From contig NZ_JADBEK010000001.1 of assembly GCF_014873145.1 (NCBI RefSeq), positions 2,294,001 to 2,358,000 on the forward strand: DNA of 64,000 nt. The letters are read 5' to 3'. The notes below the pieces were generated by a model. It searched no databases. It was not told the origin of the DNA and saw nothing but the letters and a program-made list of their open reading frames with translations. Positions 30,484-46,261 of this stretch are shown here, piece after piece; the first letter of the stretch is position 1; each line of letters starts with the position of its first letter. The position numbers and the translations under genes were made by a program. This DNA comes from Nonomuraea angiospora (lineage in GTDB: Bacteria; Actinomycetota; Actinomycetes; Streptosporangiales; Streptosporangiaceae).

Positions 30484-30720
30484 CGGGGGCTGGGCGCGGT
30501 CCCCGGCGGCCGAGCCTGGGCGTCAGGAGATGTTCCCTCATCGTTGATCCCGCCTTCAGGCTGCCCTTTCCGAACACGCCGCCGCAGGGTCCAGGATCGG
30601 TGCCGCGACGAGGAGCCGGCGCTCATCGGCCGGGACACGGGTCTTCAGGTCGCGCGCCGCTTCCCCGGAGCACCGGCGACACCCGCGGCCGGTGGTGGCC
30701 GCGTCCTGAAGGAGTGATCC

Positions 30721-31935
30721 ATGCTTGGCAAGTCCCTGTCAGTGCCGACTGCGGACCCCGTCGCGGCCCCCGTCGTGGCCGCTGTCGTGGGCGCCGTCCT
30801 GGCCGCGGCCACGTTGACGGGCGCCGCCCCGGCCTCGGCCGCGGCCTCCGCCTGTGCTGACGCCCCCGTTCCCGCGCGCGTCACGACGAGCGCCGTGTTC
30901 AACGACCCCGCGGGCGGGGACCCGGCCGCCCTCGTGCGTACGCTCTGCGGCCTCGTCCGGCAGGCCCCCGCCGGGGCCCGTATCCAGGTCGCCCACTTCG
31001 TCATGTCGGGCGCCGCGGGCACCGAGTTCGCCGACGAGCTGATCAAGGCGCACCAGCGGGACGTGGACGTGCAGGTCATCCTGGACGGGGACACGCGCGG
31101 CGCGGCCGTGGCCGCCAAGCTCGCCGCCGCGCTGGGCACCGACACGGCGGCCGGTTCGTGGACGCACGTCTGCAGCGGGCCGCTGTCCGGTGGCACGGCC
31201 GCGTGCATCGGCAACAAGGGGCAGCACAACAAGTTCTACCTGTTCTCCCGCACCGGCGACGCCTCCGACGTGGTGGTCCAGTCGTCGGCCAACCTGACCG
31301 ACCTCAACTCCTCCACGTACTGGAACAACGCGGTCGTCCTGCCCGGGAACCGGCGCCTGTACGACGCCTACGCCCGCTACTTCGGCGACCTGGCCGCCGA
31401 GCGCAAGAACCTCGACTACTACCGCGTCGTCCAGACCGGCGGCCCCGGCGGGTCGGTGCGGGCCGCCTTCTTCCCCAAGGCGGACGGCGACCCCATCGTC
31501 GACGAGCTCGGCAAGGTGACCTGCCAGGGCGGCACCACGATCCGGGTCGGCATGTCCGAGTGGGACACCTTCCGGATCGCCATCCCGGCCAAGCTCCGCG
31601 ACCTGGCCGCCCGCGGCTGCACCGTCCGGATCGTGTACGGCATCATGAGCGACGAGGTCAAGCGGCTCCTGCTGGCCGAGCCGCGCGTCGAGCTGCGCAC
31701 CCTGGGCGACGGCGGCGCGCTGCCCGGCCGCGTGCACTCCAAGTACCTGCTGATCGAGGGCTCGTACGGCGGCGACCGCGACGCCCACTGGGTGATCACG
31801 GGCAGCCACAACTACATCGAGACGTCGCTGCGCCGCAACGACGAGACGCTGCTGAGGCTCAACGACAAGTCGATCTACCGGCAGTACGTCGCCAACTTCG
31901 AGCGCATGCGCGCCGTCGCGCCCCTGGCGGGTTGA
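30721..31935 (+). CDS. Secreted phospholipase D-like protein
   Basis: A 404-residue exported protein with a signal peptide ending TGAAPASA. Two HKD phosphodiesterase motifs are present: QHNKFYLFSRTGD and VHSKYLLIEGSYGGD, each followed by a conserved Asn-containing loop (SSANLTDLN; GSHNYIETS). Two such half-sites form one active site in phospholipase D enzymes. Substrates may be phospholipids or nucleic acid. GGAG lies before the ATG. An array of short repeats follows its stop. Confidence 0.92.
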   Translation: MLGKSLSVPTADPVAAPVVAAVVGAVLAAATLTGAAPASAAASACADAPVPARVTTSAVFNDPAGGDPAALVRTLCGLVRQAPAGARIQVAHFVMSGAAGTEFADELIKAHQRDVDVQVILDGDTRGAAVAAKLAAALGTDTAAGSWTHVCSGPLSGGTAACIGNKGQHNKFYLFSRTGDASDVVVQSSANLTDLNSSTYWNNAVVLPGNRRLYDAYARYFGDLAAERKNLDYYRVVQTGGPGGSVRAAFFPKADGDPIVDELGKVTCQGGTTIRVGMSEWDTFRIAIPAKLRDLAARGCTVRIVYGIMSDEVKRLLLAEPRVELRTLGDGGALPGRVHSKYLLIEGSYGGDRDAHWVITGSHNYIETSLRRNDETLLRLNDKSIYRQYVANFERMRAVAPLAG

Positions 31936-31946
31936 TCCTGGTCGCC

Positions 31947-32112
31947 GGCCGGCGGTCCTGTGGCCGGCGACAGGCGGTCCTGCGGCCGGCGGTCCTGCGG
32001 TCGGCGGCAGGCGGTCCTGTGGCCGGCGGCAGGCGGTCCTGTGGCCGGCGGTCCCGCGCTCGGCGGCAGGCGGTCCTGTGGCCGGCGGTCCCGCGGTCGG
32101 CGGCCGGCGCTC
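31947..32112. repeat. Array of short GC-rich repeats between convergent genes
   Basis: Variants of GGCGGTCCTGTGGCCGGC alternate with GGTCCCGCGGTCGGCGGC for about 165 bases between the phospholipase D stop and the stop of the minus-strand phosphotransferase gene. Units vary between roughly 15 and 24 bases and are imperfect. Like those at 8.5 and 10.9 kb, the array sits at a gene's 3' end. No coding function is seen. Confidence 0.75.
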
Positions 32113-32120
32113 CTCGATCG

Positions 32121-33020
32121 TCAGCCGGCGCTCTTGTGGTCGGCCAGGACCTCGTCGATGACCCGCCGCTGTACGGCGGCCTGCTCCTCGTCGGTGCCGA
32201 TCTTCTCGGCCAGCACGATCAGCGCCTTCCACAGTGCCCAGCCCCGGGCCCGCGCCCACATGGCGCGATCCTGGCCGGCGACCTGCCGGAAGGCCTCCCG
32301 GCTGTCGCCCGAGAGCATCGTCCAGGCGATCACCAGATCACAGGCGGGATCGCCGACGCCCGAGGTCCCGAAGTCGATGACGGCGGCCAGCTTCCCCTCC
32401 CTGACCAGCAGGTTGCCGGCGGCGAAGTCGCCGTGGAACCACACCGGCGGCCCGGACCAGGTCGCCTCCAGGGCGGCGTCCCAGACGGCCGACGCCAGGC
32501 CGGTGTCGAGCTGACCGTCCAGCGCGGCGAGGGCGCGACGGGTCTGCTCGTCGTAGTGCGCCGGCGGCGCGCCCCTGTAGAAGCTGTGCGCACCGGCCCG
32601 AGGCCCGCCCGCGGCGTCCACGCGCCGCAGCGCGAGGAGGAATTCGGCCAAAGACTCCGCGAACCCGCACGGGTCGTCCACGCGGTCGAGGGTGGCGGTC
32701 TGGCCGTCCAGCCACCTGCGGATCGACCAGTCGAACGGGTATCCCGCGCCCGGCACGCCCTTGGCCAGCGGCACGGGAACCGCGACCGGCAAGGACGGCG
32801 CGAGGACCGGCAGCCACCGATGTTCCTTGTCCACCGCCGGCGCGTAGCCGGCAGCGGTCGGAAGGCGCACCGTCATCTCCTCGCCGAGCCGATAGGTGCG
32901 GTTGTCCCATCCGTCGACCTCGACCGGCGTCACGGGCAGCTCGCTCCACTGCGGGAACTGGTCCTCGAGCAGCCGCTTGACCAGTGAGGCGTCGATTCCG
33001 GCACGTCCGTCGGGGGGCAT
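32121..33020 (-). CDS. Aminoglycoside phosphotransferase family protein
   Basis: A protein of about 299 residues with an APH/choline-kinase fold. VWFHGDFAAGNLLVREGKLA contains the catalytic loop HGDxxxxN, followed by VIDFGTSGVGDPACDL with the Mg-binding DFG-like Asp. VDGWDNRTYRLGEEMTVRLP is the N-terminal nucleotide-binding lobe. Close relatives are often annotated as aminoglycoside resistance enzymes but mostly act on unknown small molecules. The ATG at 33020 is chosen; a GTG four codons upstream is equally possible. Confidence 0.88.
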   Translation of the reverse strand: MPPDGRAGIDASLVKRLLEDQFPQWSELPVTPVEVDGWDNRTYRLGEEMTVRLPTAAGYAPAVDKEHRWLPVLAPSLPVAVPVPLAKGVPGAGYPFDWSIRRWLDGQTATLDRVDDPCGFAESLAEFLLALRRVDAAGGPRAGAHSFYRGAPPAHYDEQTRRALAALDGQLDTGLASAVWDAALEATWSGPPVWFHGDFAAGNLLVREGKLAAVIDFGTSGVGDPACDLVIAWTMLSGDSREAFRQVAGQDRAMWARARGWALWKALIVLAEKIGTDEEQAAVQRRVIDEVLADHKSAG

Positions 33021-33075
33021 GATGTCGACCACCCCGAGAGTGTGGCGGCCTCGACCGCCGCCGGGCAAAGGGTTT

Positions 33076-33519
33076 TCAGGCCGGCCTCTCGTCCTCCTCG
33101 AAGCAGAGCTCGCCGCCGAGCTGGGCGCCCAGCTCCAACTGGTCGTAGTAGATGCGGTGGCTGACGATGAGATCGTCCTCCACGGTCGAGACGCTGCACG
33201 CGCGCACGAGGATGGGGCGGCCGGTCGCCGGGGCCACGCCCCCTCCGGGCATCAGGTAGGCGCCCTTGTGCGTGCCGCTCAGGGTGTACTCCGCCACCAG
33301 GGTGTCACCCAGGATCGTGAGCGACTGGATGGTGCACCTCGAGTCCGGGAACGCCTCGATGAACGCGCCGTAGTAGGAGGCGATCTCGTCCCTGTCCTGG
33401 CCCACGCCGTCCGGCGCGACGAGGACCGCACCGCGGCTGAAGGTGTCCGCGAGATCGTCCACGTCGTGGCGGTTGAAGGCTCTGCGCAGCCGGTCCAGCG
33501 GGCGTCGGGGATCAGACAT
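33076..33519 (-). CDS. SnoaL/NTF2-like protein
   Basis: A 147-residue protein with the SnoaL (nuclear transport factor 2) fold. It begins DRLRRAFNRHDVDDLADTFS, where an N-terminal helix with NRHD is typical, and continues SYYGAFIEAFPDSRCTIQSL. The pocket is lined by later strands. Members include polyketide cyclases and small isomerases, but no active-site residues identify a reaction. It is transcribed divergently from a membrane-protein gene across a 222-base AT-rich gap. Confidence 0.85.
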   Translation of the reverse strand: MSDPRRPLDRLRRAFNRHDVDDLADTFSRGAVLVAPDGVGQDRDEIASYYGAFIEAFPDSRCTIQSLTILGDTLVAEYTLSGTHKGAYLMPGGGVAPATGRPILVRACSVSTVEDDLIVSHRIYYDQLELGAQLGGELCFEEDERPA

Positions 33520-33741
33520 CGACTCATTTTAATGGCCAGAAGGGCAATTATTGGGCCAACCCTCAGTACAGAAATATCGGGAAAAATCCGTTTTTCTGGA
33601 GACATATACGTCTGTCACGGTTCGCCGAGCCGTCCTGTCAGAGAGGGTGACCACCCTGGTGCCGGCATCGCCCCGGCGACTACCATCTCGGCCAGTTCGG
33701 AAAACGAGGAGTGCCTGCCCGGTGAAAGTCGAGACCGCCTG

Positions 33742-34233
33742 ATGCAGGCCGTCCTCCACGCGGCGGGGATCTCCGCCGGGTGCGCCCTCGCCCTCGCCCC
33801 GGCCCTGCTGCCCTCCGCGCATCCCACCAGGAGGTGGCCGCACGTCGTCATGGCGCTCGGCATGGCGGCCGGGCACCTGGGCGGCTGGTTCCTGCCCGCC
33901 GCGGTGCTCGCGCTGCTGACCGCCGGCTGGCTGTGCGGCTCCCCCTCCCGCCGCGCCGAGACCGGCCATCACATCCAGGACTTCGTGGTCATGTCCATCC
34001 TCCTGGTGCTGACGGCGTCCGGCTCGCCCCCTCTCGCCGGCGCCGCGTCCGGGCACCCGCACGGAGGCGGTGCGCCGGCCGCGGTGGCCCTGGCCATCGG
34101 GCTGGCCTGGACCTGCGCCCGGCTCGTCCGCGTCCTGCCCGCACGCGGCGCGGACCGAAGAATGTTCGGTCAGGACGTCTGCTCGGCCGGAATGGCGGCC
34201 AGCATGGCCTTCATGGCCGCGCTGGCCCTCTGA
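33742..34233 (+). CDS. Hypothetical membrane protein
   Basis: A 163-residue protein with four to five hydrophobic helices. A His/Gly-rich loop (SGHPHGGGAP) lies between the third and fourth helices, and other His occur near helix ends (MAAGHLGGWFLP; GHHIQDF), which might bind metal. I do not recognise the family. The ATG at 33742 overlaps a short upstream frame by one base (TGATG). It lies upstream of a cupin gene on the same strand. Confidence 0.65.
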   Translation: MQAVLHAAGISAGCALALAPALLPSAHPTRRWPHVVMALGMAAGHLGGWFLPAAVLALLTAGWLCGSPSRRAETGHHIQDFVVMSILLVLTASGSPPLAGAASGHPHGGGAPAAVALAIGLAWTCARLVRVLPARGADRRMFGQDVCSAGMAASMAFMAALAL

Positions 34234-34327
34234 CGGGTCAGCGCGCTGTCACACATCGGGGCGCTGCCTTGTCTGAGCTGGTACACGGCCGGACCGAGCC
34301 GGCCACCGTCCCGTGAAGGGAACCCCG

Positions 34328-34768
34328 ATGAGCATCGATCAGGCTCACGCCCACCAGCTGGAGAGCCCCGACAAGAGCGGGCCGCTACCGAAGATCGAGA
34401 TCGTCGCCACCGTGCCGGGGGCGCCGCCCGCGCCGGAGGGCGCCGAGGCCATGACGATCCTGGTCACGCTGCCGCCGGACAGCCCGGGCGCGCCGCCGCA
34501 CCGCCACTCCGGCCCCGCGTACGGGTACGTGGTCAAGGGCGCCATCAACTTCGAGCTCGAAGGCGAGCCCGTGCGGGTCGTCCGGGCCGGTGAGGCGTTC
34601 TGGGAGCCCGGTGGGGACGTGATCCACTACCAGGACGGCAACCACCTGGCCGACGAGGAGTCGGCGTTCGTGGTGACGATGTTCTGCGCGCCCGGGCAGC
34701 CGATGCTGATCCCGGTCAGCCCGCAGGAGCTGGAGGCCCGGCGAGACCGTCGCGCGCCGCGAGCATGA
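34328..34768 (+). CDS. Cupin domain-containing protein
   Basis: A 146-residue single-domain cupin. The two conserved motifs are visible: PGAPPHRHSGPAYGYVVKG (metal His pair and Glu-equivalent) and WEPGGDVIHYQDGN, with the later His. Start at 34328 has AAGGGA six bases before it; a GTG at 34313 is less likely. The function could be enzymatic or sensory; nothing nearby fixes it. A hairpin terminator follows at 34811. Confidence 0.88.
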   Translation: MSIDQAHAHQLESPDKSGPLPKIEIVATVPGAPPAPEGAEAMTILVTLPPDSPGAPPHRHSGPAYGYVVKGAINFELEGEPVRVVRAGEAFWEPGGDVIHYQDGNHLADEESAFVVTMFCAPGQPMLIPVSPQELEARRDRRAPRA

Positions 34769-34810
34769 CCGAGGCGGCCCTGTTCACGACCGCGCACTGA
34801 AGACAAAGAA

Positions 34811-34836
34811 GGCGGGAATCGGGGGCGTTTCCCGCC
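34811..34836 (+). terminator. Hairpin terminator after the cupin gene
   Basis: GGCGGGAA (34811-34818) and TTCCCGCC (34829-34836) form an 8-bp stem with a 10-base loop, extended by partial GAAG/CTTC pairing outside. It lies 43 bases past the cupin stop and insulates the methyltransferase promoter. Confidence 0.55.
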
Positions 34837-34870
34837 TCTTCAGAGAAAGACGTGCGCTTGGGCGGGTTTT

Positions 34871-34908
34871 CACCGTTTATATAGCTGTGATTGTCACTGT
34901 TTATATAG
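34871..34908 (+). promoter_or_regulatory. Direct-repeat promoter element of the methyltransferase gene
   Basis: CACCGTTTATATAG (34871-34884) and CACTGTTTATATAG (34895-34908) are near-identical 14-mers 24 bases apart. Between them lies the inverted repeat GTGA-TTG-TCAC. The block is far more AT-rich than its surroundings. The spacing of about two helical turns suggests a regulator binding on one face, with TATATAG possibly doubling as a -10 box. Confidence 0.5.
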
Positions 34909-34937
34909 ATTTGCGCTCGCAAACAACGGGGGAAACC

Positions 34938-36002
34938 ATGGAGAAGACGCTTGACCAGGATCGGGTGAAGGAGTTCCTGGAACGCGTGATGATCGACAAC
35001 GGTGCCGCCCTCGCGGGCCTCTGCACGTCGATCGGCACCCGGCTCGGGCTCTACCAGGCGATGGCCGGTGCCGGGCCGCTGACCTCCGAGGCGCTCGCCG
35101 CCCGTACCGGCCTCGACGAGCGGTACGTACGGGAGTGGCTGGCCTCCCAGGTGGCCGGCCAGTACGTGCGCCACGAGCCCGGCACGGACACCTATGTGTT
35201 CCCCGACGAGCACGCCGCCGTGCTCGCGGACCCGGCCTCTCCCGCGTACTCGGCCGGGGCGTTCGCCATGCTCCAGCCGCTCTACGCCACCGAGGACGCG
35301 CTGGTGGACGCCTACCGGACCGGCGGCGGCGTGGGCTGGGAGGAGCACGGGCCCGCCTTGTACGAGGGGGTGGCCGCGTTCTTCCTCCCCGGCTACGCGG
35401 CGTCCCTGGTGCAGGAGTGGTTGCCGGCCATGGACGGCGTGGTGGAGGGGCTGGAGCGGGGCATGTCCGTCGCCGACGTCGGCTGCGGCTTCGGCCACAG
35501 CACGTTGCTCATGGCGCACGCGTACCCCCGCTCCCGCTTCCACGGCTTCGACTTCCACGGCCCGTCCGTCGAGAGGGCGCGGCGGGCGGCGGCGGAGCAG
35601 GGGCTGGCCGACCGGGTGAGCTTCGAGGTCGCGGGCGCGGGCGACTTCCCCGGCGGCGACTACGGCCTGATCACCTTCTTCGACTGCCTGCACGACCTCG
35701 GTGACCCCGGCGCCGCGTTCCGGCGCGCCGCGCGGACGCTGGCCGCCGGCGGCGCCTGCCTGATCGTCGAGCCGAACGCCGCCGCGGCGCCCCAGGACAA
35801 CATCAACCCGCTCGGCCGGGCGTTCACGGCGACGTCCGCGACGTTGTGCCTGCCCGGGGCGCTGGCCCAGAAGGGGCCGTACGCGCTGGGGAACCACGCC
35901 GGCGAGGACGCCCTGCGGCGCATCGCGCACGAGGCCGGCCTGCGCACCTGGAAGCTGGCCGCGCAGAGCCCCGCCAACCTCGTCTACGACGCCCGCCGCT
36001 GA
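34938..36002 (+). CDS. Class I SAM-dependent methyltransferase (Rv2258c-like)
   Basis: A 354-residue enzyme. An N-terminal winged-helix region (DRVKEFLERVMIDNGAALAG with LTSEALAARTGLDERYVREW) precedes a Rossmann methyltransferase domain whose SAM motif is VADVGCGFGHSTLLMA and whose acidic loop is FHGFDFHG. This layout matches the Rv2258c-type family. The ATG at 34938 has GGGGGAAA upstream. The substrate is unknown. Its promoter carries unusual direct repeats, suggesting tight regulation. The 3' end lies 13 bases from the converging oxygenase gene. Confidence 0.9.
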   Translation: MEKTLDQDRVKEFLERVMIDNGAALAGLCTSIGTRLGLYQAMAGAGPLTSEALAARTGLDERYVREWLASQVAGQYVRHEPGTDTYVFPDEHAAVLADPASPAYSAGAFAMLQPLYATEDALVDAYRTGGGVGWEEHGPALYEGVAAFFLPGYAASLVQEWLPAMDGVVEGLERGMSVADVGCGFGHSTLLMAHAYPRSRFHGFDFHGPSVERARRAAAEQGLADRVSFEVAGAGDFPGGDYGLITFFDCLHDLGDPGAAFRRAARTLAAGGACLIVEPNAAAAPQDNINPLGRAFTATSATLCLPGALAQKGPYALGNHAGEDALRRIAHEAGLRTWKLAAQSPANLVYDARR

Positions 36003-36015
36003 TCCCCCGAGCGCG

Positions 36016-37899
36016 TCAGCCGTCCTCGTCGTCCCAGTCGTCCTCTTCGTCGTCCCACAGGTCGCTGGGCGGCAGCGGGTGCTCGTCGTCGACGAGCGAG
36101 TCGTCCACGTAGCGCCGCCAGGCGCGGCTCTCGCCCGGGTCGGCCCAGTCGTCCTCGGTGATCCTCGGGACGGGGATGGTGGCCCGCTGGTGGTCGACCA
36201 TCCACGAGTTGCGGAAGAAGTCGAACCTGAGGTGCCGGCAGCCGGCGGACTCGGTGTAGATGATGGGCGGGACGAGGAACTGCGCCACGCCGACCTTGGC
36301 CGCGACGACCACGTAGTCCTCGGGGATGGATTCGTCGTTCCAGCAGGCGGCGAAGTTCACCGGCTGGAGCGCGCCCTTGCCGAGCACGTGGATGAGGTTG
36401 TCCTGGATGACGAACCGGTCCGGGTCGAGGGCCACGTCCTCGCCGAGCATGAGGATCGGCGCGGGCAGGATGTGCGCCTTGGCGAAGGACTGCGCGTCGG
36501 TGTAGAGATCGATGATCTCGTCGTGGCGCGTGGGGTCGTAGCGTCCGGAGGAGTGGAACGGGCAGCAGATCCGGAGGTTCGGCTCCTCCGGCTCGGGAAA
36601 GAATCCGGACTTGTCCACCCGCGTCATGACGGACCCGCCGCGCCTGGCACTCAGGAACTCGGGGATCCAGCCGGCGTCGTCGGACTCGATCACCTCCGTC
36701 TCGCACAGCGCCCGGAACGCGGTGTCGCCGAGCTTGCAGTTGAAGTAGTCGAGCAGGGTGAGCGCGGCGCACTCCGCCGGCGACAGCTCCTCGCTCTTGG
36801 CGAACCAGAAGTCGTAGCCGTTGGTCACGAAGTGCACCCCGCGGAACTCCTTGTGCACGAAGGTCTCGCGGGTGGGGCCCTCCCCCAGGCCGTTCCAGTG
36901 GGCGGCCGCCACCTGGTTGTAGTACGCGTCGGCGTGCCGGGCCAGCTCCGGCGCGAACACGCTCTCACCGGTGAGATAGCACGCCTTGCTGAACAGCTCG
37001 CCGATCTCCGGCGCCTCGGTGACCTCGTCGGCGGCGAAGATCAGCTCGGTACGCAGGAACACCTTGCGGCCGTCGCGGTAGGGGGCGCCCTCGTGCTCGT
37101 ACCGCTGGTCGAAGATCACGCACGTGAACTCGCCGATCTCGCCGAGCGCGGCGCCGCCGACCAGGTCGAGCGCCGGCGACCCCGTGCCGCCGGTCAGGTA
37201 GAGCAGCACCGTGTACCGGGAGATGTGCCGCCGCGCCGCGTCGAAGTACGGCGTGTCCCGGTGCCGGTGGAAGTTCGCGTCGCCGGGCTCGAACCGGTTG
37301 CACCTGAACACCGGGTTCACGTGCGAGAACCCCTCCGCCGTCGCCGGCGGCAACGCGTCGGCCACCGCCGCGCTCAACGCCTCGGCCAGCAGCGCCGAGT
37401 GGAAGATGAACCGTTCACCGCCCCGGGACCCGGCGTTCAACGGCGGCACGTACAGCTTCAGCTCGTCCAGCCGCTCCAGGCGGGTCCGGGCCTCGGCCGG
37501 CAACCGCAGCGAGAACGAGAACACCCCCTCCGCGAGCTCCGCCCGCTCGGCCAGCTCCGCCTCCAGCGGCACGCCCTCGAACAGGCGGTCCAGCGGGACG
37601 ATGTTCTCGAACGTGCGGAACGACAACTCGTGCGGATCCACGAACACCGCCGCCAGGTACGGCGCGTCCGCGCTCGGCCGGGCGAACAGGTCCCGCACCC
37701 GCTCGTCGATCCGCTCGGCGTCGATGAACCGCACCGCCTTGAACCGCGCCGACGGATGCCAGGAAAGGTCCAGCCCGTCCACCGTCGCGGCCGGCTCGGC
37801 GTCGGTCGCGTCCACCTCCGCCCGGTATCGGGCGGCCTCCTCGGCGGGCGCGTCGCCGGCCGACAGGACGAAGAAGCGATCCCGGAGTTCGATGCTCAC
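36016..37899 (-). CDS. Large 2-oxoglutarate/Fe(II)-dependent oxygenase (prolyl-hydroxylase-like)
   Basis: A 627-residue protein. Residues of about 190-290 match the double-stranded beta-helix of Fe(II)/2-oxoglutarate oxygenases of the prolyl-4-hydroxylase type. The HxD facial triad is H213-R-D215 in FHRHRDTPYF, the distal His is H269 in RYEHEGAPY, and R278 nine residues later is placed to bind 2-oxoglutarate. The C-terminal half is not a known oxygenase extension. It has cysteines (RICCPFHSS) and ends in an acidic tail with WDD repeats (LWDDEEDDWDDEDG). The GTG start at 37899 has GGAGG five bases ahead and overlaps the stop of the LRR gene (GTGA), so the two are translationally coupled. Activity and substrate are unknown; a protein substrate is plausible. 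Confidence 0.75.
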   Translation of the reverse strand: MSIELRDRFFVLSAGDAPAEEAARYRAEVDATDAEPAATVDGLDLSWHPSARFKAVRFIDAERIDERVRDLFARPSADAPYLAAVFVDPHELSFRTFENIVPLDRLFEGVPLEAELAERAELAEGVFSFSLRLPAEARTRLERLDELKLYVPPLNAGSRGGERFIFHSALLAEALSAAVADALPPATAEGFSHVNPVFRCNRFEPGDANFHRHRDTPYFDAARRHISRYTVLLYLTGGTGSPALDLVGGAALGEIGEFTCVIFDQRYEHEGAPYRDGRKVFLRTELIFAADEVTEAPEIGELFSKACYLTGESVFAPELARHADAYYNQVAAAHWNGLGEGPTRETFVHKEFRGVHFVTNGYDFWFAKSEELSPAECAALTLLDYFNCKLGDTAFRALCETEVIESDDAGWIPEFLSARRGGSVMTRVDKSGFFPEPEEPNLRICCPFHSSGRYDPTRHDEIIDLYTDAQSFAKAHILPAPILMLGEDVALDPDRFVIQDNLIHVLGKGALQPVNFAACWNDESIPEDYVVVAAKVGVAQFLVPPIIYTESAGCRHLRFDFFRNSWMVDHQRATIPVPRITEDDWADPGESRAWRRYVDDSLVDDEHPLPPSDLWDDEEDDWDDEDG

Positions 37900-38831
37900 A
37901 TGGACCTCCACATGCTGCGCAGTCCGGACGGAAGGTTCGCGGCGTGCGCCAGTTCGCGCACGCCGTCCCGGCCCACATCGGAGCCGTACAGCCACAGCCG
38001 CGCGAGGGACCCGGCGAACGGGGCCGCGATCAGGGCCTGCGCGCCGGCCTCGCCGAGGTCGTTGTAGCGCAGGTCGAGCTCGGTCAGCTCCGGGAACCGG
38101 TGCAGGGAGCGCACGCCGTCGGCGCTCAGCTTGTTGCGCTGCAGGTGCAGGCGGCGCAGTCCGCTCAGGTGCGGGGACGCCGCGAGGGCCGCCAGACCGG
38201 CGTCGCCGATCCGGCAGTACCGCAGTTCCAGTGCCCGCAACCGGTCCGTGCGGAGCGAGGCGGCGAGGAGTTCGGCGCCGTGCGGGCCGAGGTCCAGGTA
38301 GGAGAGGTCGAGCCCGGCGAGCCGGCCGAGATCCAGCCCGTTGAGCGCCTCCATGTCCGGGCGCCCGGACCGACCCCCACCTTCCTCATCGTCGTCCTCG
38401 TCGTCCTCGTCGTCGTCCTCGTCCCAGTCGTCATCCTCGTCGTCCCAGTCCTCGTCCTCGTCGGACTCCGCGTCCGACCAGATCCGCAGCTTGGTGACGA
38501 ACCGGCCGCGCAGCACCTGCTCCACGACCTCGCGGACGTCGTCCGACCACGGGACGGCGACCTCCGTGGCGAAGCCGTACCGGCGGGCCAGCACCCGCAC
38601 CGTCGCCGGCAACCCGTCGTCCCACCCGCCCTCGTGCTCCGCGACGAGGTCGGCGATCTCCCGCTCAATGGCCGGGCGGTCGGCGGGACGGGTCCGCGCC
38701 AGGCGCTGTTCGAGGCGGATCAGCGTGCCTCTGGCGTCGCCCTGCTCCAGCAGCCGGTCACTGTAGGCGTCCCACGAGGCGAGGTCATCGGGCTGAGCCC
38801 GTAACGCGTCTTCGACGGCGGTCGCTTGCAT
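37896..38831 (-). CDS. Leucine-rich repeat protein with TIGR02996 domain
   Basis: A 311-residue protein in three parts. The N-terminal 45 residues (ALRAQPDDLASWDAYSDRLL followed by EQGDARGTLIRLE) match the TIGR02996 domain found on LRR proteins of complex bacteria. Next is a very acidic linker (about 122-151, Asp/Glu with WDD motifs). Then come about five leucine-rich repeats of the RI-like type (for example LRALELRYCRIGDAGLAALA). No signal peptide is present, so it is cytoplasmic. The start at 38831 lies directly at the predicted transcript start, so the mRNA is likely leaderless. It is coupled to the oxygenase gene and may recruit its substrate. Confidence 0.85.
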   Translation of the reverse strand: MQATAVEDALRAQPDDLASWDAYSDRLLEQGDARGTLIRLEQRLARTRPADRPAIEREIADLVAEHEGGWDDGLPATVRVLARRYGFATEVAVPWSDDVREVVEQVLRGRFVTKLRIWSDAESDEDEDWDDEDDDWDEDDDEDDEDDDEEGGGRSGRPDMEALNGLDLGRLAGLDLSYLDLGPHGAELLAASLRTDRLRALELRYCRIGDAGLAALAASPHLSGLRRLHLQRNKLSADGVRSLHRFPELTELDLRYNDLGEAGAQALIAAPFAGSLARLWLYGSDVGRDGVRELAHAANLPSGLRSMWRSM

Positions 38832-38866
38832 TCGTACGAATGTACGGAGATCGACAGATGTGTCAA
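38829..38866 (-). promoter_or_regulatory. Leaderless promoter with palindrome over the -10 and start codon
   Basis: On the minus strand TTGACA (complement of 38861-38866) and TACATT (complement of 38839-38844) are spaced by 16 bases. This puts the transcript start within a base or so of the LRR ATG at 38831. CATTCGTACGAATG (38829-38842) is a perfect 14-bp palindrome that covers both the -10 box and the start codon, so a bound repressor would block initiation. Confidence 0.6.
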
Positions 38867-39024
38867 GGCGCCGCGCATCATCTGTAAACGGACCCCGGAT
38901 GACCGCGCGGGCAGGTATCGTGCTGCGCCGAGTACATGATCGTCTACGTGTCCCAGGCGGCACGGTGTCGTCGCGGCGCTCTCGGGCGGAGCCAGGGGGC
39001 CCGCCTCACTTGGAGGTCTCCACC

Positions 39025-40278
39025 GTGAATTCACCGGGTCCTGAGCAGGGCCGGGACGACGACGATGCCGCCGCCGAGAGGCGGGCGTGGGAGTCCGCCG
39101 CCCGTGCCTGCTACCGGGAGATCGGGGTCCCGTTCCCGGAACGGGTCGTGTGGGTGTCCTCACCGCTCGTCGGCGCGTTCGCCGCACCGATCGCGGCCTG
39201 CCTGAGCACCGGCCACCGCAACAACCGCGTCCTGGAGTCCGTCTACCGCGCGGTGGACGGCACCGCCGGCGAGAGCGTCGGCCACGCCGTGCGCGCCGCG
39301 GTCCGGGTCGCGGCCGACGGGGCGGCGAGCGATCCGGTGTACGGCGCGGCCGCCACCGCCCTGCACGCCGAGATCGCCGCGACGATGGGCTCCGCGCTGG
39401 CCTCGGCGGTACGGGACCTGCCCGCCCGCGAGGAGGGCCGCAATGCGCTGGCCGGCGTGTTGAACCTGGTCGCCGCCGCGTCGGAGACGGCCGTGGGGGC
39501 GGCGGTGGACGCGGCGGTGGGCGGCCCGCGGCAGGACACGATCCGCGGCGAGGTACGCCGGCTGTGGCGGGCCCACCTGGCCTTCCAGCGTTCCGGCACC
39601 TGGCTGCCCCTGGTCGGCCACTTCAGACAGGCCCCGCCCCCAGGACACGACCCGGCCTCAGGGCGCGACGAGGATCGGCCGCCGCAGGGCGCCGTGGAGC
39701 AGGAGGCGGCGCGGTCCGCGCCCGCCGGCTGGTGGTGGTGGCCCTTCCTCGACTTCGTCATGCTCTGCCCGCGCCCGACCGAGCTGCACCTGGAGCAGGT
39801 CGGCGAGGGCGCCGGGGCCGCGCAACGGCCGCACCGCGCCGACGGTCCCGCGGCCGGCTGGTCCGACGGGTTCGGGGTCTACTTCTGGCACGGCACCCAG
39901 GTCACCCGGGCCGTCATCGACGACACCCTCACCGCCGACGAGATCCTCCGCGAGACCAACGCCGAGATCCGCCGCTGCGCCATCGAACGCCGCGGCTGGG
40001 ACCGCTTCATCACCGAGGCCGGCCTGGCCCAGATCGGGCCCGCCGTACCCGATCCCGGCAATCCCGGGCAGACCCTCACCCTGCACGACGTGCCCGATGA
40101 CATCTACACCACGCACGTGCGGGTCCTGCTGTGCACCAACGGCACCGTCGAGCGGGACGGCACCCGCCGCCGCTTCGGCCTCACCGTCCCCGCGGACTGC
40201 ACCGACCCCATCCAGGCCGCCGCCTGGACCTACGGCCTCACCCCGGCGCAGTACGCCGGCGCGCAACGACGATCCTGA
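39025..40278 (+). CDS. DUF6745-like protein
   Basis: A 417-residue protein that starts with GTG at 39025, with GGAGG eight bases upstream; longer in-frame starts lack a site. The N-terminal half is Ala-rich and helical. The C-terminal part (RGWDRFITEAGLAQIG, then TTHVRVLLCTNGTVERDG and GLTVPADCTDPIQAAAWTYG) resembles the C-terminal conserved region of DUF6745 proteins. It has an unusual run of four Trp (AGWWWWPFLDF). The gene is divergent from the LRR/oxygenase pair across a 193-base promoter region and is followed by a small partner gene. Function unknown. Confidence 0.75.
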   Translation: MNSPGPEQGRDDDDAAAERRAWESAARACYREIGVPFPERVVWVSSPLVGAFAAPIAACLSTGHRNNRVLESVYRAVDGTAGESVGHAVRAAVRVAADGAASDPVYGAAATALHAEIAATMGSALASAVRDLPAREEGRNALAGVLNLVAAASETAVGAAVDAAVGGPRQDTIRGEVRRLWRAHLAFQRSGTWLPLVGHFRQAPPPGHDPASGRDEDRPPQGAVEQEAARSAPAGWWWWPFLDFVMLCPRPTELHLEQVGEGAGAAQRPHRADGPAAGWSDGFGVYFWHGTQVTRAVIDDTLTADEILRETNAEIRRCAIERRGWDRFITEAGLAQIGPAVPDPGNPGQTLTLHDVPDDIYTTHVRVLLCTNGTVERDGTRRRFGLTVPADCTDPIQAAAWTYGLTPAQYAGAQRRS

Positions 40279-40310
40279 CCCCGCCCACCGGCAAAGGAGC
40301 CCGAGAGAAG

Positions 40311-40715
40311 ATGCCCACCATCGAGCAGGCCATCGCCACCTTCGGCGTCACCGTCGACGAGCACCTCGACCGGCAGGCCGAGATCCCCATCCTGTCCGGC
40401 CTGCAGTTCCAGGGCGATGTCGCCGTCGTACCGGTCAACCGGGACCCGGCCCGCACCCCCGTCCCCGAGACCGGCGTCCCGATCGTCCGCGGCCAGGGCG
40501 GGGCCAACACCCACCTCCTGCTCGCCACCGGCAAGGCGTTCTTCACGCCGGAGCGCTTCGGCGGCGGAATGGTGCTCGGCGTCCTGACCGTGACCGAGGA
40601 CGCGACCGCCTATCTCGCGCACCCCGAACACGCCTTCACCGGCATCGCACCGGGCACCTACGAGCTGCGGCGCCAGCGCGAGCAGGCCGACGACACCCGG
40701 CTCGTCGCCGACTGA
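40311..40715 (+). CDS. Small hypothetical protein paired with the DUF6745-like gene
   Basis: A 134-residue soluble protein. Features include LQFQGDVAVVPVNRDPA, a run of beta-strands (THLLLATGKAFFTPERF) and a C-terminal block PGTYELRRQREQADDTRLVAD. I recall small proteins of this shape (QGDV near the start, PGTY-RQRE near the end) beside DUF6745 genes, but cannot name a family. It starts 32 bases after the previous stop with AAGGAG ahead of it. A strong hairpin follows. Confidence 0.75.
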   Translation: MPTIEQAIATFGVTVDEHLDRQAEIPILSGLQFQGDVAVVPVNRDPARTPVPETGVPIVRGQGGANTHLLLATGKAFFTPERFGGGMVLGVLTVTEDATAYLAHPEHAFTGIAPGTYELRRQREQADDTRLVAD

Positions 40716-40784
40716 AGCCGCGGTCACCGCCACAGCGCCCACCGATCCCTCCGGCCGCTTGACGACGTCCATCGCCCCCCGAGG

Positions 40785-40809
40785 TGGGCGGATGCCGGGC
40801 ATCCGCCCA
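40785..40809. terminator. Bidirectional hairpin terminator
   Basis: TGGGCGGATGC (40785-40795) and its exact complement (40799-40809) form an 11-bp stem with a 3-base loop. It lies between the small DUF6745-partner gene and the minus-strand secreted-peptide gene and could end both transcripts. Confidence 0.65.
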
Positions 40810-40820
40810 TCTGCCCGCTC

Positions 40821-40940
40821 TCAGGGCGCCGGCGCGGCCAGCAGCCCGTACTCGATGGCTGTCGCGGCGTTGGCGGTGCCGGCGAGCAGCGCCGGCGCCG
40901 AGAAGGCCAGGACGAGCAGGAGGGAGATTCGTCGAGCCAT
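40821..40940 (-). CDS. Very small secreted peptide
   Basis: A 39-residue gene. The translation is a short basic start (MARRIS), a hydrophobic core (LLLVLAFSAPALLAG), a signal-peptidase-like TANA end and a short remainder ATAIEYGLLAAPAP. GGAGG lies five bases before the ATG, a strong ribosome site for so short a frame. The terminal block resembles the conserved TAIEYGLIAA start of Flp-type pilins, although the usual longer hydrophobic helix is missing. It lies downstream of the choice-of-anchor I gene on the same strand. It may be real, or a remnant. Confidence 0.5.
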   Translation of the reverse strand: MARRISLLLVLAFSAPALLAGTANAATAIEYGLLAAPAP

Positions 40941-41069
40941 GAGGGCCTCCGGTCAGGTTTCCGCCGCGCATTCGACGACCGGACCGGCGCGGATCGCGGC
41001 CAGCTGCACCTGTGACGAGGACGTTACCTCGCGGACCTCGGGCGGCGCGTCGGGAGCCGGTCGGGGCGC

Positions 41070-42644
41070 CTACCGGATCTCGTAGATGGCGGTGGTCCCG
41101 CTCACCTCGTTGCCCACGATCAGCAGCGGCCGGCGGGTCGGGCTGTCCGCCGCGGACACGAAGAGCACACCTTCCGGGCCGACGTCGCCGGCGGTCCCGT
41201 CCTCGACGGATCCGGCGAAGTCGCGGGTGTTGAGATAGTCGGCGAGGACCGGGCGCCGGGGGTCGGTCACGTCGTAGGCCACCACCCCGCTGACCCGCTC
41301 GAGCCCGGCGAACGCGTACGTCCTCCCCCGCACCTGACCCACCGCGACGCCCTCGGGCTCCGGCCCCTTGTTGTCGCTGCGGCTGTCGAAGGAGTCGTTC
41401 TCCTCGTTGTCGGCGTTGAACTCCTTGGGCAGCTCCCGGGCGATCAGCTGCTCGAGCTCGTCCCCCGAGTCCCAGACCAGCGCGCCCGTGGCGGAGCGCA
41501 CGGAGATCGAGCGGGCGCCGAAGGCGTACAGCTCCCGGTAGGCGCCCGAGGCGTCCTTCGGCGAGTCCGCGGCCACGGTCAGGCGGCCCAGCTCCGCGTC
41601 CTTCTTCAGCTCGGCGGCGTTCGGGAACGTCTCCGCCGACAGCGTCAGGTCCTTCACGCGCACCTCGTCCATGTGGCAGTCCCAGTCGCGCCCGTCGCCC
41701 TCGTTGGCGGTGACGAGGTACGTCTGCCCCTTCGAGCGGAAGTGCGCGACCGCGTCGGGCATGTACATCCCCTTGACGCCGGCCCGGGGCCGGATGTCGA
41801 TCTTCCCGTCCTTGTCGGAGGCGTCCAGGCCGACCTTGCCGAAGTCCTTCAGGCCGAGAGGCACGATCCGCCGCACCTTGGCGCGGGCGAGGTCGACGAT
41901 CGCCACCGCGTTGTTCTCCTGCAACGTCACCCATGCCGTGTCACCGGCCACCGTGATGTACTCCGGCTCCAGGTCCTGCGCCACCGTCGCGCCCGGACCT
42001 GGGATGCGCACGCCCGCGGCCCGGAGCGCCTCGGCCTGGTCGTTGAACGCCCGGAAGTCGGCCGTCCGTACGGTGCCGCGCTTCACGTCGATGACGCTCA
42101 CCGACCCCTCAGGGTCGTCGGCGGCGCCCGCGCAGTACGATTCCGGCTCGCCCTCGTTGGCGACGACCAGCCGGCGGCCGTCCTCGCCGAAGGTCACCAT
42201 GTCGGGAAGCGCCCCCACGGCGAACTCCTTGAGCTTCTTGCCGGAACCGGCCTGGAACAGCGTCACCTTCCCCTGGCCGGTCTTCTTCGCCGCCTGCTGC
42301 GCGACGGCCACCAGACCTCCGCTCACGGCGACGCTGTTGGCTCCGGGAGCGGCCAGGGAGGTGACCCGCTCCGGGTTGCGCGGGTCGCGGAGGTCGAGGA
42401 CGTCCACCGTTCCCGCCTGCGCGTTCACCACGAAGGCGCGCTTGGTGGCGGGATCGTAGGAGGTGATCTCGGAGGCCCCGGCACCGACCGACCCGGTCGA
42501 GAACCGGCCGAGGAACGCCAGGCTGACGCCCTTGATCCCGTTGTCCCGGGAAGTCGTCGCCTGGGCGGGAACGGCGAGCAGGGCGAGTGAGAGAGCGGCG
42601 CCGGCGGCGGCCGCGGCCGTCCGGAAGGCATGTGAGCGGTGCAT
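41070..42644 (-). CDS. Secreted choice-of-anchor I beta-propeller protein
   Basis: A 524-residue exported protein with a signal peptide (ALSLALLAVPAQA) and repeated propeller-type blades (VNAQAGTVDVLDLRDPRNPE; VVANEGEPESYCAGAADDPE; ENNAVAIVDLARAKV). This is the choice-of-anchor I / esterase-like propeller family. It includes the conserved MPDAVAHF, VTANEGDGRDW and GPEPEGVAVG segments. Members are cell-surface or secreted and often linked to phosphate-regulated enzymes, but their activity is unproven. It is transcribed alone. Confidence 0.88.
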   Translation of the reverse strand: MHRSHAFRTAAAAAGAALSLALLAVPAQATTSRDNGIKGVSLAFLGRFSTGSVGAGASEITSYDPATKRAFVVNAQAGTVDVLDLRDPRNPERVTSLAAPGANSVAVSGGLVAVAQQAAKKTGQGKVTLFQAGSGKKLKEFAVGALPDMVTFGEDGRRLVVANEGEPESYCAGAADDPEGSVSVIDVKRGTVRTADFRAFNDQAEALRAAGVRIPGPGATVAQDLEPEYITVAGDTAWVTLQENNAVAIVDLARAKVRRIVPLGLKDFGKVGLDASDKDGKIDIRPRAGVKGMYMPDAVAHFRSKGQTYLVTANEGDGRDWDCHMDEVRVKDLTLSAETFPNAAELKKDAELGRLTVAADSPKDASGAYRELYAFGARSISVRSATGALVWDSGDELEQLIARELPKEFNADNEENDSFDSRSDNKGPEPEGVAVGQVRGRTYAFAGLERVSGVVAYDVTDPRRPVLADYLNTRDFAGSVEDGTAGDVGPEGVLFVSAADSPTRRPLLIVGNEVSGTTAIYEIR

Positions 42645-42763
42645 GCGCCGATCGTGGCGACAGCCGATGACTATTTGAGCGCCGGAGGATGTCCATGTGG
42701 TGAATTGCACCTGGGAAGAGCCTCGTCCACGCAGCTCAGGCCACATGAGGACGGAGAGGAGAG

Positions 42764-45700
42764 CTACCTGGCGTCCTCCAGCAGCGGCGCGAGCTTCTTC
42801 TCGCAGGGTGCGTGTCCGATCTCCCGGCACAGCCGCAGGACCTCGCCGGCCCTGCGCGCCGCCGCCTCGCGGTCGCCGCGTCGCCGTTCCAGCTTGGCCA
42901 GCTCCGTCAGCGCGGCCAGCTCCGGCAGCCGGTACGCGCTCTCGGACGCCACGGCGTGTCCCCGCAGCGCGTGGCGGACGGCGCCCTCCTGGTCGCCCAG
43001 GGCGTCGAGCAGCCGGGCGCGGGCGAGCAGCGCGTAGGCCAGATGCCAGTTCAGGCCGCCCGCGCCGATGAGGTCGCCGGCCAGGTCCAGGCTGTCCGCG
43101 GCCTCCGCCGTCAGTCCGAGGCGGACCCCGGCGTCGGCCAGGGCGACCAGCGCCGCCGCCTCCACCAGCCGGTCCCCCTGGCCCCGGCACACGCCGAGCG
43201 CCGCCAGCGCCTCGTCCCGCGACTGCGCCCACCGGCCGTTCTCCCAGTGCAGCCGGCTGATCCAGATCTGCGTCGTGGCCGCGCCGTGGCCGCCTATCGA
43301 GGTGATCAGGGCGAGCGACTGCCGCAGGCAGGTCTCCGCCTCGCCGTACCGGCCCTGGTCGAGGAGCACGGCGCCCAGCTGCCGCAGGTCGGCCCCCTCG
43401 GCGTAGGGCAGATCGTGGCGCCGGCTCAGCGCGAGTGCCTGCCTGCAGTATTCCTCGGCCAGCTCCAGCCGGCCCAAGTGGTGGTGCTGGTAGCCGAGCG
43501 CGTTGAGTGCCCGCACCTGGCCGGGCACCGAGCCGAGCTCGCCGAAGAGCTGCGCGGCGCGTACGTTGTCGGCCATCGCCTCGACGAGGTCGCCCGTCCA
43601 CGCCCGCGCGAAGCTCAGCCCCATCCTGGCCGCCGCCTCGCCCTCCCGCTCGCCGCTCTCGCAGGCGATGCGGACGGCCTGCTCCAGGTGCCCGACGGCC
43701 TCCTCGCGGCGGCCGACGCGGAAGAGGCCGTCGCCCATGCCGGTGTGCAGCATGGCGGTCACGGCCGGCACGTCGTGCGCGGAGGCGGCCTCCAGCAGGG
43801 GCGGCGCGATCTCCATCCACTCGCCGATGCGTCCGGTGCGGGCGCAGATGGCGCGGACCATGTCGGCCAGGCGCCAGACGGCCGGGCCGGGCTCCCGCTC
43901 GATCGCGCATCTCAGCGCGGCCAGCAGGTTGATGACGTCGGCCGCCTCGGGGGACGGCAGCTCGCGGGCGTCCGGGCCCGGCTGCGGGCCGGAGAGCAGG
44001 GACTCGCCGGGCGCGCACCGGGCGGCGACGGCCGCGCCCAGCTCCAGGTAGTGGCCGAACAGGCGCTGCCAGGCCGGCTCACGCTCGGAGTCGCGCCCGG
44101 CTTCCGCCACCGCGTACAGGCGGACCAGGTCGTGGAAGCGGTAGCGGTCGGTGATGTGGTGTTCGAGCAGGTGGGCCGCGGCCAGGGCCCTGAGCGAGGC
44201 GCGTGCCGCGTCCCGCGGGAGGCCGGTGACCGCCGCCGCGGCCGCCACGGTGACATCGGGGCCGGGCACGAGCCCGAGCAGGCGGAAGACCCGCTGATCG
44301 GCGGGGGCGAGCAGGCGATAGGAGGCGGAGAAGGCGACCGTGACGGCGTTGTCCTTGGCGCCGTCCACGGTGAGCCCCGCCAGCGGGTTGCCGGCGGCCA
44401 GCTCCGCCGCGACCGCCGCGGTGCCGTCCTCGGGGCGGGCGGCGGCGTTCGCGGCGGCGATGCGCAGCGCGAGCGGCAGCCCGCCGCACGCGCGCACCAG
44501 CTCGCCGCGCGCGTGCGACTCGGCCGGGCCGCCCGCCGGCCCGAGCACGCCGTCCAGCAGCGCCCGGCCGTCCGCCTCGGACAGCGGGCCGAGCGAGTGC
44601 TGCCTGGCGCCCGCGAACGCCACCAGCTCGCCCAGGCGGTGCCGGCTGGTCACGAGCGCCACGCCGTTCGGGGGCAGGAGCTGCTCGATCTGGGCCGCCG
44701 CGCGGGCGTTGTCCAGGACCAGCAGGTACGAGTGCCCCGCCAGCAGCGAGCGATAGAGGCCGAGCTGGGTCTCGAACCCGCCCCCCACCCGTTCGGGATC
44801 GACGCCGAGCGAGACCAGCAGCCGGGTCAGCGCCGCCGTCGGGGTCAGCGGCTCGCGGTGCGGGTCATAGCCGCGAAGGTCGAGGTAGAGCTGCCCGTCG
44901 GGGAAGCGGTCCTTGGCCCGGTGCGCCCAGTGCAGCGCGAGGGCCGTCTTGCCCATCCCGGCCGTGCCGCTCAGCACGCACACGCCGTCGCCGCCGGCCA
45001 GGCACTCGTCCAGCCAGGCCAGCTCCGCGTCGCGGGCGGCGAACGCGGGCACGTCCCTGGGCAGCTCGGCCGGCCGTGCGACGAAGGGCTCCGGTCGCGG
45101 CGGAAGGGGCGCCGGGTGCGCGCCCTCCCCGGGTGAGCCCGGTTCGTCGTCCCGCAGGAGCCGCTGGTGCAGCTCGCGCAGGGGGCGGCCGGGCTCGATG
45201 CCGAGTTCGTCGACCAGCCGCCGTCTCGACTCCCGGTACACCGCCAGCGCCTCGCCGCGGCGCTCGCACCGGTGCAGGGCCAGCATGAGCTGGCCCAGCA
45301 GCCGCTCGCGCAGCGGGTGCTCGGCCACCGCCGTGTGCAGCTCGCCGACGATCTCGGCGTGCCGCCCGGCCGCGAGTTCGGAGTCGTACAGCTCCTCCAG
45401 GGCGCAGATCCGCCTGTCCTCGAGGCCGGGGCGTTCCTGGCGGATCAGCTGGGCGCTGGTCCCCGCCAGCGCGGGGCCGCGCCACAGCCCCGCCGCGGCG
45501 CGCAGCCGTAACACGGCGTCGGTGTGACGCCCCTGCTCCGCGTCGGCGCGCGCGGCGGCTCTGTGCCCCTCGAACAGCTGCAGGTCGAGCTCGTCCGCGC
45601 CGGTGTGGATGCGGTAGCCCGCGCCGACGCGGCTGATGCGCTCCTTGCCGACCAGCGCTCGTAACTCGTGGATGTAGACCTGCAGGCGCGAGACGGCCGT

Positions 45701-45880
45701 ACGCGGCGACCGCTCGCCCCAGATCAGATCGACGAGCCGGTCGTCCGACACCGTGCGGTTCGCGTGGAGCAGCAGGGCGGCCAGCACGGTCCGCTGTTTC
45801 GGTGAGCCCAGCGCGATCGGCCCCTCAGGCCCGTCGACCGATACCGGCCCGAGCAGCGCGAACCGCACCTCCGATTCCAT
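42764..45880 (-). CDS. AfsR/SARP family regulator with NB-ARC and TPR
   Basis: A 1038-residue regulator. Residues 1-95 form an OmpR-type winged helix (SPKQRTVLAALLLHANRTVS). Residues of about 100-245 are the bacterial transcriptional activation domain. A P-loop NB-ARC ATPase follows with GTAGMGKTALALHWAH (about 308) and LLVLDNARAAAQ. The remainder is TPR-like helices. It is a classical SARP layout, usually an activator of secondary metabolism or development. The small secreted protein gene at 45968 is its nearest same-strand upstream neighbour; no biosynthetic cluster is next to it. Confidence 0.95.
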   Translation of the reverse strand: MESEVRFALLGPVSVDGPEGPIALGSPKQRTVLAALLLHANRTVSDDRLVDLIWGERSPRTAVSRLQVYIHELRALVGKERISRVGAGYRIHTGADELDLQLFEGHRAAARADAEQGRHTDAVLRLRAAAGLWRGPALAGTSAQLIRQERPGLEDRRICALEELYDSELAAGRHAEIVGELHTAVAEHPLRERLLGQLMLALHRCERRGEALAVYRESRRRLVDELGIEPGRPLRELHQRLLRDDEPGSPGEGAHPAPLPPRPEPFVARPAELPRDVPAFAARDAELAWLDECLAGGDGVCVLSGTAGMGKTALALHWAHRAKDRFPDGQLYLDLRGYDPHREPLTPTAALTRLLVSLGVDPERVGGGFETQLGLYRSLLAGHSYLLVLDNARAAAQIEQLLPPNGVALVTSRHRLGELVAFAGARQHSLGPLSEADGRALLDGVLGPAGGPAESHARGELVRACGGLPLALRIAAANAAARPEDGTAAVAAELAAGNPLAGLTVDGAKDNAVTVAFSASYRLLAPADQRVFRLLGLVPGPDVTVAAAAAVTGLPRDAARASLRALAAAHLLEHHITDRYRFHDLVRLYAVAEAGRDSEREPAWQRLFGHYLELGAAVAARCAPGESLLSGPQPGPDARELPSPEAADVINLLAALRCAIEREPGPAVWRLADMVRAICARTGRIGEWMEIAPPLLEAASAHDVPAVTAMLHTGMGDGLFRVGRREEAVGHLEQAVRIACESGEREGEAAARMGLSFARAWTGDLVEAMADNVRAAQLFGELGSVPGQVRALNALGYQHHHLGRLELAEEYCRQALALSRRHDLPYAEGADLRQLGAVLLDQGRYGEAETCLRQSLALITSIGGHGAATTQIWISRLHWENGRWAQSRDEALAALGVCRGQGDRLVEAAALVALADAGVRLGLTAEAADSLDLAGDLIGAGGLNWHLAYALLARARLLDALGDQEGAVRHALRGHAVASESAYRLPELAALTELAKLERRRGDREAAARRAGEVLRLCREIGHAPCEKKLAPLLEDAR

Positions 45881-45967
45881 GAGCCCCCTTCACGTCCCGA
45901 CTCCCCCGCTGTGATGCTAGCGAGAGATGATCGTGCGGAAGGGGGATACGGGAACCCGGGCGACGGG

Positions 45968-46195
45968 TTACTTCAACACCCAGAGAGCCCAGAACGGGCT
46001 GTCCCAGTCGCAGTCCCAGTATTCGTGGTCCCCGGAGTACTTCCAGCCCGCCGCCTCGCACTGCGCCAAGGTGCGGTGGACGCTCTTGATGTAACCGACC
46101 TTGACCTCGGCGCTCGCGGGCACGCCGGCGCCGGCTGTCACGGCCATCGCCAGGGCGGCCGCCGGGACCAGCACTCGCATGATCTTGTTCCGCAT
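45968..46195 (-). CDS. Small secreted protein, unknown
   Basis: A 75-residue protein: signal peptide (KIMRVLVPAAALAMAVTAGAGVPASA) then a mature chain of about 46 residues rich in aromatic and acidic residues (HEYWDCDWDSPFWALWVLK), with two Cys 16 residues apart that could form a disulfide. The start at 46195 gives the signal peptide directly; the longer frame does not. It is upstream of the SARP regulator on the same strand. The fold is not recognised. Confidence 0.75.
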   Translation of the reverse strand: MRNKIMRVLVPAAALAMAVTAGAGVPASAEVKVGYIKSVHRTLAQCEAAGWKYSGDHEYWDCDWDSPFWALWVLK

Positions 46196-46261
46196 GGAGA
46201 ACCTGCCTTCGCTCGATGACCCCAAGAGCGTCGCAGCCAAGACTTCCGTAACGCTTCTCTT

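Follow-up and report, generated by a model that had tools for sequence, protein, structure and literature searches.

In eukaryotes, protein hydroxylation by 2-oxoglutarate (2OG) oxygenases is a classic means of oxygen sensing; bacterial examples are few. The chains of bacterial prolyl 4-hydroxylases (P4Hs) are around 200 residues long, and we know of no leucine-rich repeat (LRR) partner for them. The closest described systems also include the ribosomal prolyl hydroxylases OGFOD1, Tpa1, and Ofd1, which have a helical-repeat partner, Nro1/Ett1 (PMC4396695, PMC5690285). Here, we describe a locus of Nonomuraea angiospora in which an LRR gene and a 2OG-Fe(II) oxygenase-like gene diverge from a gene of the DUF6745 family and its small partner; it lies in a stretch of 64,000 nucleotides (the window; contig NZ_JADBEK010000001.1, positions 2,294,001 to 2,358,000) of a 13.1 Mb genome assembled as one contig. 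The original prediction, made from the letters of the window, supposed that the LRR protein picks out a protein for the oxygenase to hydroxylate, with the DUF6745 pair as target or control. The four genes turn out to be two modules (LRR-oxygenase and DUF6745-small) and not one, and these modules are joined in one clade.

The association of the LRR protein with the oxygenase was followed in 40 oxygenase-encoding loci fetched from actinomycetes and, in five cases, from Nannocystis, Archangium, and another myxobacterial metagenome-assembled genome. The LRR gene is immediately upstream of the oxygenase gene in 39/40 of these loci, the exceptions to a proper pairing being L041, which has only a 30-residue LRR piece, and L046, which has no LRR. 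Where the LRR start is defined, its stop and the oxygenase start overlap by exactly 4 bases in 28 of 31 loci. Moreover, the oxygenase was found in 6 of 200 genomes of the family, and a full-length LRR protein occurs in those same 6 (at least 432 bits), the next-best match in the 200 genomes being one of 57.9 bits to the repeat part only. These observations strongly support that part of the original prediction by which the two proteins are one functional pair; the selection of a substrate by the LRR protein is something that we infer. Judged by titles and the beginnings of abstracts, no description of this pair was found in the open-licence papers searched.

In the window, the four genes, the 193-base divergent region, and the 4-base overlap (of the LRR TGA stop with the oxygenase GTG start) are as first described, and the features are as follows:

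36016-37899, minus strand: 2OG-Fe(II) oxygenase-like protein, 627 residues, GTG start, acidic C-terminal tail
37063-37263, minus strand: catalytic motif of the oxygenase (H213-x-D215, H269, R278/K279)
37896-38831, minus strand: LRR protein, 311 residues, ATG start
38832-39024: divergent intergenic region, 193 bases
38833-38846, minus strand: CGTAC-N4-GTACG, a LexA/SOS-like palindrome that overlaps the -10 element
38839-38866, minus strand: predicted LRR-oxygenase promoter, TTGACA-16 bases-TACATT, 7 bases before the LRR ATG
39025-40278, plus strand: DUF6745 protein, 417 residues, GTG start, GGAGG upstream
40311-40715, plus strand: small DUF6745 partner, 134 residues
36008-40996: block of about 4.99 kb that the close relative G216 lacks, comprising the four-gene cassette and about 280 bases past the small gene

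The strongest functional clue here comes from the region in front of the LRR gene, where motifs of the two DNA-damage types are found. In the clades without the cassette, the motif is often TTGTCRGTG-N8-TANNNT, which we take to be the RecA-NDp consensus bound by PafBC. The count covers 29 of the 31 non-cassette loci, all but L041 and L046, and the motif scores at least 10/12 in 16 of them, at least 11 in 12, and 12/12 in 6; for the 7 loci without a defined LRR start, a 250-base stretch was scanned, which gave a single one (L025) of the 12 hits at 11 or more. A score of at least 11 was reached by none of 2900 dinucleotide shuffles. As a further control, 467 upstream regions of 120 bases were taken from the same loci, with genes called crudely from third-position GC content (GC3) and starts, therefore, often wrong; 4 of these reach at least 10, 2 at least 11, and 2 reach 12. 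The corresponding Fisher p values (6e-19, 1e-14, and 6e-7) overstate the surprise because the loci are related. Fifteen loci score at least 10 and have a defined start; in 14 of them, all but L039, 6-8 bases separate the end of the site from the start codon. The recA gene of N. angiospora, a positive control, has a perfect SOS box together with a RecA-NDp site that scores 11/12; the same combination is reported for mycobacterial recA (PMC8223512), and an earlier study relied on a RecA-NDp promoter in predicting that a Streptomyces gene is UV-inducible (PMC5087735).

At the LRR promoter of the window, the best RecA-NDp score is 8/12, and the motif there is LexA-like. Aligned with one another, the cassette intergenic regions show one block of marked conservation at the LRR start, in which TTGACA-16-TANATT, 7 bases before the LRR ATG, scores at least 9/12 in 11 of 12 cassettes, as against 5% of shuffles. 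This spacing predicts a leaderless mRNA for the LRR-oxygenase pair. In the cassette clade, this promoter is overlapped by the palindrome CGTAC-N4-GT(A/T)CG (L035 is without such a box); CGWAC-N4-GTWCG, a form of the box chosen once the data had been seen, is perfect in 9/12 cassettes (0.0003 in shuffled sequence). The canonical SOS (LexA) box is CGAAC-N4-GTTCG; against it, 10/12 cassettes score at least 8/10 (shuffled 3.2%) and 4/12 score 9 (shuffled 0.23%), the window itself scoring 8/10. The region upstream of lexA in the same genome carries CGAACTCCCGTACG and CGAACAATTGTTTG, including CGAAC-N4-GTACG. The presence of RecA-NDp and LexA-like motifs at the LRR start suggests that two clades use, between them, the two actinobacterial DNA-damage controls for the same operon. 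The likeness to the PafBC (RecA-NDp) and LexA regulons of actinobacteria is in these motifs; however, no LRR-oxygenase member is mentioned in the parts seen of the papers on them (PMC8223512, PMC6789036, PMC5087735, PMC2897130). A second LexA-family match (209.7 bits) lies about 35 kb before the window, at G000:C1:2258931-2259539 (L186).

The oxygenase itself was aligned with homologues chosen from those listed and from the fetched loci, giving 47 sequences with that of the window. H213, D215, H269, R278, and K279 are invariant in 47/47, so that the HxD...H iron triad is present and the retention of the first four, claimed earlier, is borne out. A basic residue that binds 2OG is expected some 9-10 positions past the distal His, a position that R278/K279 fit. 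The window oxygenase matches no Pfam family at E up to 1 (PF13640 was matched in 4/47 aligned sequences, at best with E 9.5e-4), and two profiles searched against the PDB gave no sequence, even at E 10; PF26703.1 is the stored annotation on 119 of the 120 oxygenase homologues listed. The structural model has the double-stranded beta-helix core of 2OG oxygenases at residues ~108-295, in keeping with the original prediction, which a model lacking such a core would have contradicted. Foldseek alone gave weak matches (best E 0.01), and the folds closest to the core are those of prolyl and lysyl hydroxylases, mostly acting on proteins, with the OGFOD1/Tpa1/Ofd1 group at the top (Z 10.8) and the P4Hs of Bacillus anthracis and Pseudomonas putida also among the matches. 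A hydroxylase-type core is thus predicted from the model; the C-terminal part of the protein is barely covered by fold matches. One homologue, P0088 (796 residues), has an extra C-terminal domain for which Pfam gives nothing at E up to 0.01.

The likeness to OGFOD1, Tpa1, and Ofd1 extends from the core fold to a similar size, acidic regions, and a dedicated repeat-protein partner, but there is no sequence match, and the partner here is an LRR protein whereas theirs is a helical-repeat protein. These enzymes also have a second, non-catalytic jelly-roll (the fold matches barely reach the C-terminal part of the window oxygenase), and they differ from the bacterial two-gene operon, which is mobile and has DNA-damage-type promoters. 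The bacterial P4Hs share the 2OG core; the window oxygenase, however, adds to it an N-terminal part and ~300 C-terminal residues.

The LRR protein has a TIGR02996-like N-terminal part, an acidic linker, and leucine-rich repeats at the C-terminus. Of the earlier label of a TIGR02996-LRR protein, the repeats are confirmed and the family is not, the match being below the cut-off (26 versus 29.05 bits). A comparison may also be made with the STM4011-STM4015 cluster (radical SAM, hydrolase, ATP-grasp, and LRR proteins), which likewise includes an LRR protein and which faces a small-DUF6745 pair elsewhere in the same genome; however, the window LRR protein is far below the STM4015 cut-off (26.9 versus 275 bits), and there is no oxygenase match in that cluster. 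In the open-licence papers searched, STM4012, STM4013, and STM4015 come up in two, once in each, and no mention of DUF6745, TIGR02996, or PF26703 was found.

The DUF6745 protein belongs to its family on the basis of Pfam PF20530 (108.5 bits, cut-off 27) and has no convincing fold match in the PDB. Its small partner matches phrog_27831 (E 1.5e-15); QGD, H68, H104-x-E106-H107, RQRE, and AD are invariant in 21/21 aligned members, and the H...HxEH set could bind a metal. DUF6745 matches occur in 58/120 genomes of the bacterial family and are of two kinds, high-scoring (at least 312 bits) and lower-scoring like that of the window (below 130 bits, 49 places listed). Twenty stand-alone loci were picked by hand from these 49 places, two cassette places being deliberately excluded, and about 6 kb were covered on each side (about 3 kb for one side of L085). 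In 20/20 of them, the small gene follows DUF6745, and in 20/20 there is no LRR-oxygenase within the stretch read. Conversely, the DUF6745-small pair adjoins the oxygenase in only 9 of the 40 fetched loci, the other 31 being without it nearby. DUF6745-small is an independent pair, a module separate from LRR-oxygenase, and a role for it as target or control, as originally proposed, lacks support as a general rule on either count.

A second small-DUF6745 pair is present in the N. angiospora genome, in locus L049 (5595-13140; G000:C1 about 9484594-9492139), and it is this pair that faces the STM4011-STM4012-STM4013-STM4014-STM4015 cluster, here with two STM4015 LRR genes; its small protein shares 35% identity over 104 columns with that of the window. 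Another pair is found in a Mycobacterium prophage, where the small gene comes first and where the DUF6745 protein (L172 6383-7828; PF20530, 101.3 bits) has a long run of QLGDQLWDQL-type repeats ahead of the DUF6745 domain.

The LRR-oxygenase pair has other companions. An AAA_5 ATPase gene follows the oxygenase gene in the opposite orientation in 11/40 loci, and a DUF2201 gene is also present in 10 of these 11 (in L032, the contig ends). Oxygenases with these neighbours group together in the tree, along with two members that lack them. Neither DUF6745-small nor AAA/DUF2201 is present at around half of the 40 loci. Genes closely related to the AAA gene were also read in six places that lack the oxygenase. 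Since the companion pairs vary and the AAA relatives occur without it, the constant unit is LRR-oxygenase. No AAA or DUF2201 match was found in the 9 fetched cassette loci, nor was the AAA protein matched in the N. angiospora genome. In several of the loci with AAA/DUF2201 genes and no oxygenase (L107-L112), large proteins (~550-930 residues) are encoded nearby; scans of three of these found nothing in Pfam at E up to 0.01.

The original prediction would have been undermined if the four genes had been adjacent in this genome only. They are found in the same order in 12 genomes of three genera (including G141 and G221), and in the oxygenase tree the 10 four-gene loci, that of the window included, form one side of a branch with 100/100 support. 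Among 54 genomes of the Nonomuraea group, 13 have an oxygenase match, 11 of them full-length and 2 as fragments only, and 10 of the 11 full copies have all four genes; the other, G220, has LRR-oxygenase alone, with an oxygenase that is 69% identical and of another clade. As to the fragments, oxygenase pieces abut a piece of the small gene in L170 (about 7219-7546), which is read as decay of the whole cassette, and L171 (7269-7385) has an oxygenase piece only.

The close relative G216 (locus L144) can be aligned, at 91.5-93.7%, with most of positions 26002-36007 of the window and again with 40997-41710 and 42766-47504; it lacks the block at 36008-40996, and 28 other bases sit at the junction. 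The four genes are therefore a discrete unit, present or absent between close relatives, and the span first assigned to them, 36016-40715, is right for the genes and slightly smaller than the block. G216 also differs over 41711-42765 (counterpart L144 11680-14779), which indicates that the neighbourhood is a variable spot. No flanking gene is common to all 10 cassette loci compared (some pairs share a few isolated genes), and neither a mobility gene nor a convincing terminal repeat was found. Pairwise gene distances correlate over the 12 cassettes (r 0.80-0.92; Mantel p 0.0005, the lowest that 2000 permutations can give), which is equally expected from plain co-descent. Elsewhere, LRR-oxygenase pairs are carried by Streptomyces plasmids (L023 and L173, an IS5 transposase adjoining one), and two Embleya plasmid records also encode the oxygenase.

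Our tentative interpretation, to which we give a little less than an even chance, is that of a mobile, DNA-damage-inducible, two-protein hydroxylation module with an LRR adaptor, which the DUF6745-small pair has joined in this clade. DNA damage would relieve LexA-type repression in the cassette clade, to which the window belongs, or activate PafBC in other actinomycete clades. A leaderless mRNA would then give the LRR protein and, the two genes being translationally coupled, the oxygenase as well; as a dedicated adaptor, the LRR protein would bring a protein target to the oxygenase, which, with Fe(II), O2, and 2OG, would hydroxylate a prolyl (or lysyl) residue on it. The LRR-oxygenase pair would be horizontally mobile with optional partner pairs, of which DUF6745-small might be a second effector or a modulator.

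One rival explanation is that the two pairs are independent mobile modules, brought side by side a single time, that have since merely been co-inherited: each pair occurs alone (in 31/40 LRR-oxygenase loci and in 20/20 DUF6745-small loci taken outside the cassette), and a single origin of the association suffices for the tree. However, the association has been kept in 12 genomes of three genera even though, in the 10 loci compared, most flanks bear no relation to one another, no complete copy in the cassette clade has just one pair, and remnant L170 keeps pieces of both (L171 has only the oxygenase piece); co-inheritance alone is, on balance, rather doubtful. Another possibility is a module for stress or immunity, in which a damage-switched mobile hydroxylase would modify a host or phage target picked by the LRR protein and interchangeable pairs (DUF6745-small or AAA/DUF2201) would read out or enforce the modification; this we regard as speculative and doubtful. 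A further possibility is that the four-gene cassette is an anti-phage or other conflict system with an LRR sensor, an oxygenase effector, and DUF6745-small as a second effector or guard. The patchiness of the block (11 full copies and 2 fragment sets in 54 genomes; absence from G216), the pair in a prophage, the oxygenase in 4 plasmid records, and promoters that would suit phage attack are all consistent with this, as are the AAA (11/40) and DUF2201 (10/40) genes after the pair in a sister clade, which recall the MoxR-vWA ternary conflict systems (PMC7159879). However, these genes are not at the window, and a word search of that paper did not find DUF2201 in its text and found LRR and dioxygenase only in its reference list; moreover, none of the four proteins has a PADLOC match below E 0.05, and there is no nuclease or other known killing domain among the Pfam matches. 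We consider such a system unlikely.

The substrate need not be a protein. If the oxygenase were a damage-induced, AlkB-like dioxygenase for DNA or RNA repair, with the LRR protein as an accessory, it might be expected to have the AlkB hallmark, an Arg 17 positions past the distal His; this position (286) is a Leu, invariant in 47/47 aligned oxygenases, and we judge such a role improbable. Many actinomycete 2OG oxygenases modify small molecules or amino acids, and AviO1, EvdMO1, KanJ, SnoN, and PolD do appear in the fold lists, as a role in specialised metabolism would have it. Against this are the strict LRR partner, the DNA-damage-type promoters, and the finding, from a crude clustering of neighbours that was not gene by gene, that no recognisable biosynthetic set recurs beside the pair; this role is very improbable.

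If the hydroxylation module proposed above is real, an LRR-oxygenase pair under both types of actinobacterial DNA-damage promoter would bring a new modification into the bacterial damage response; with two genes in one inducible operon, it would also make a simple test system. The cassette, for its part, is a defined genetic setting in which to study the orphan family DUF6745 and that of its small partner. The cassette nature of the locus, the AAA/DUF2201 alternative, and the DNA-damage-type promoters go beyond the original prediction.

Finally, the part of the block past the small gene contains an open reading frame of 39 codons on the minus strand (40821-40940), with GGAGG upstream. It has no match in 12 further loci (E 1e-3) or in 40 named loci (E 1); judged by eye, its product has a signal-peptide-like start and a Flp-pilin-like end, ATAIEYGLLAA.

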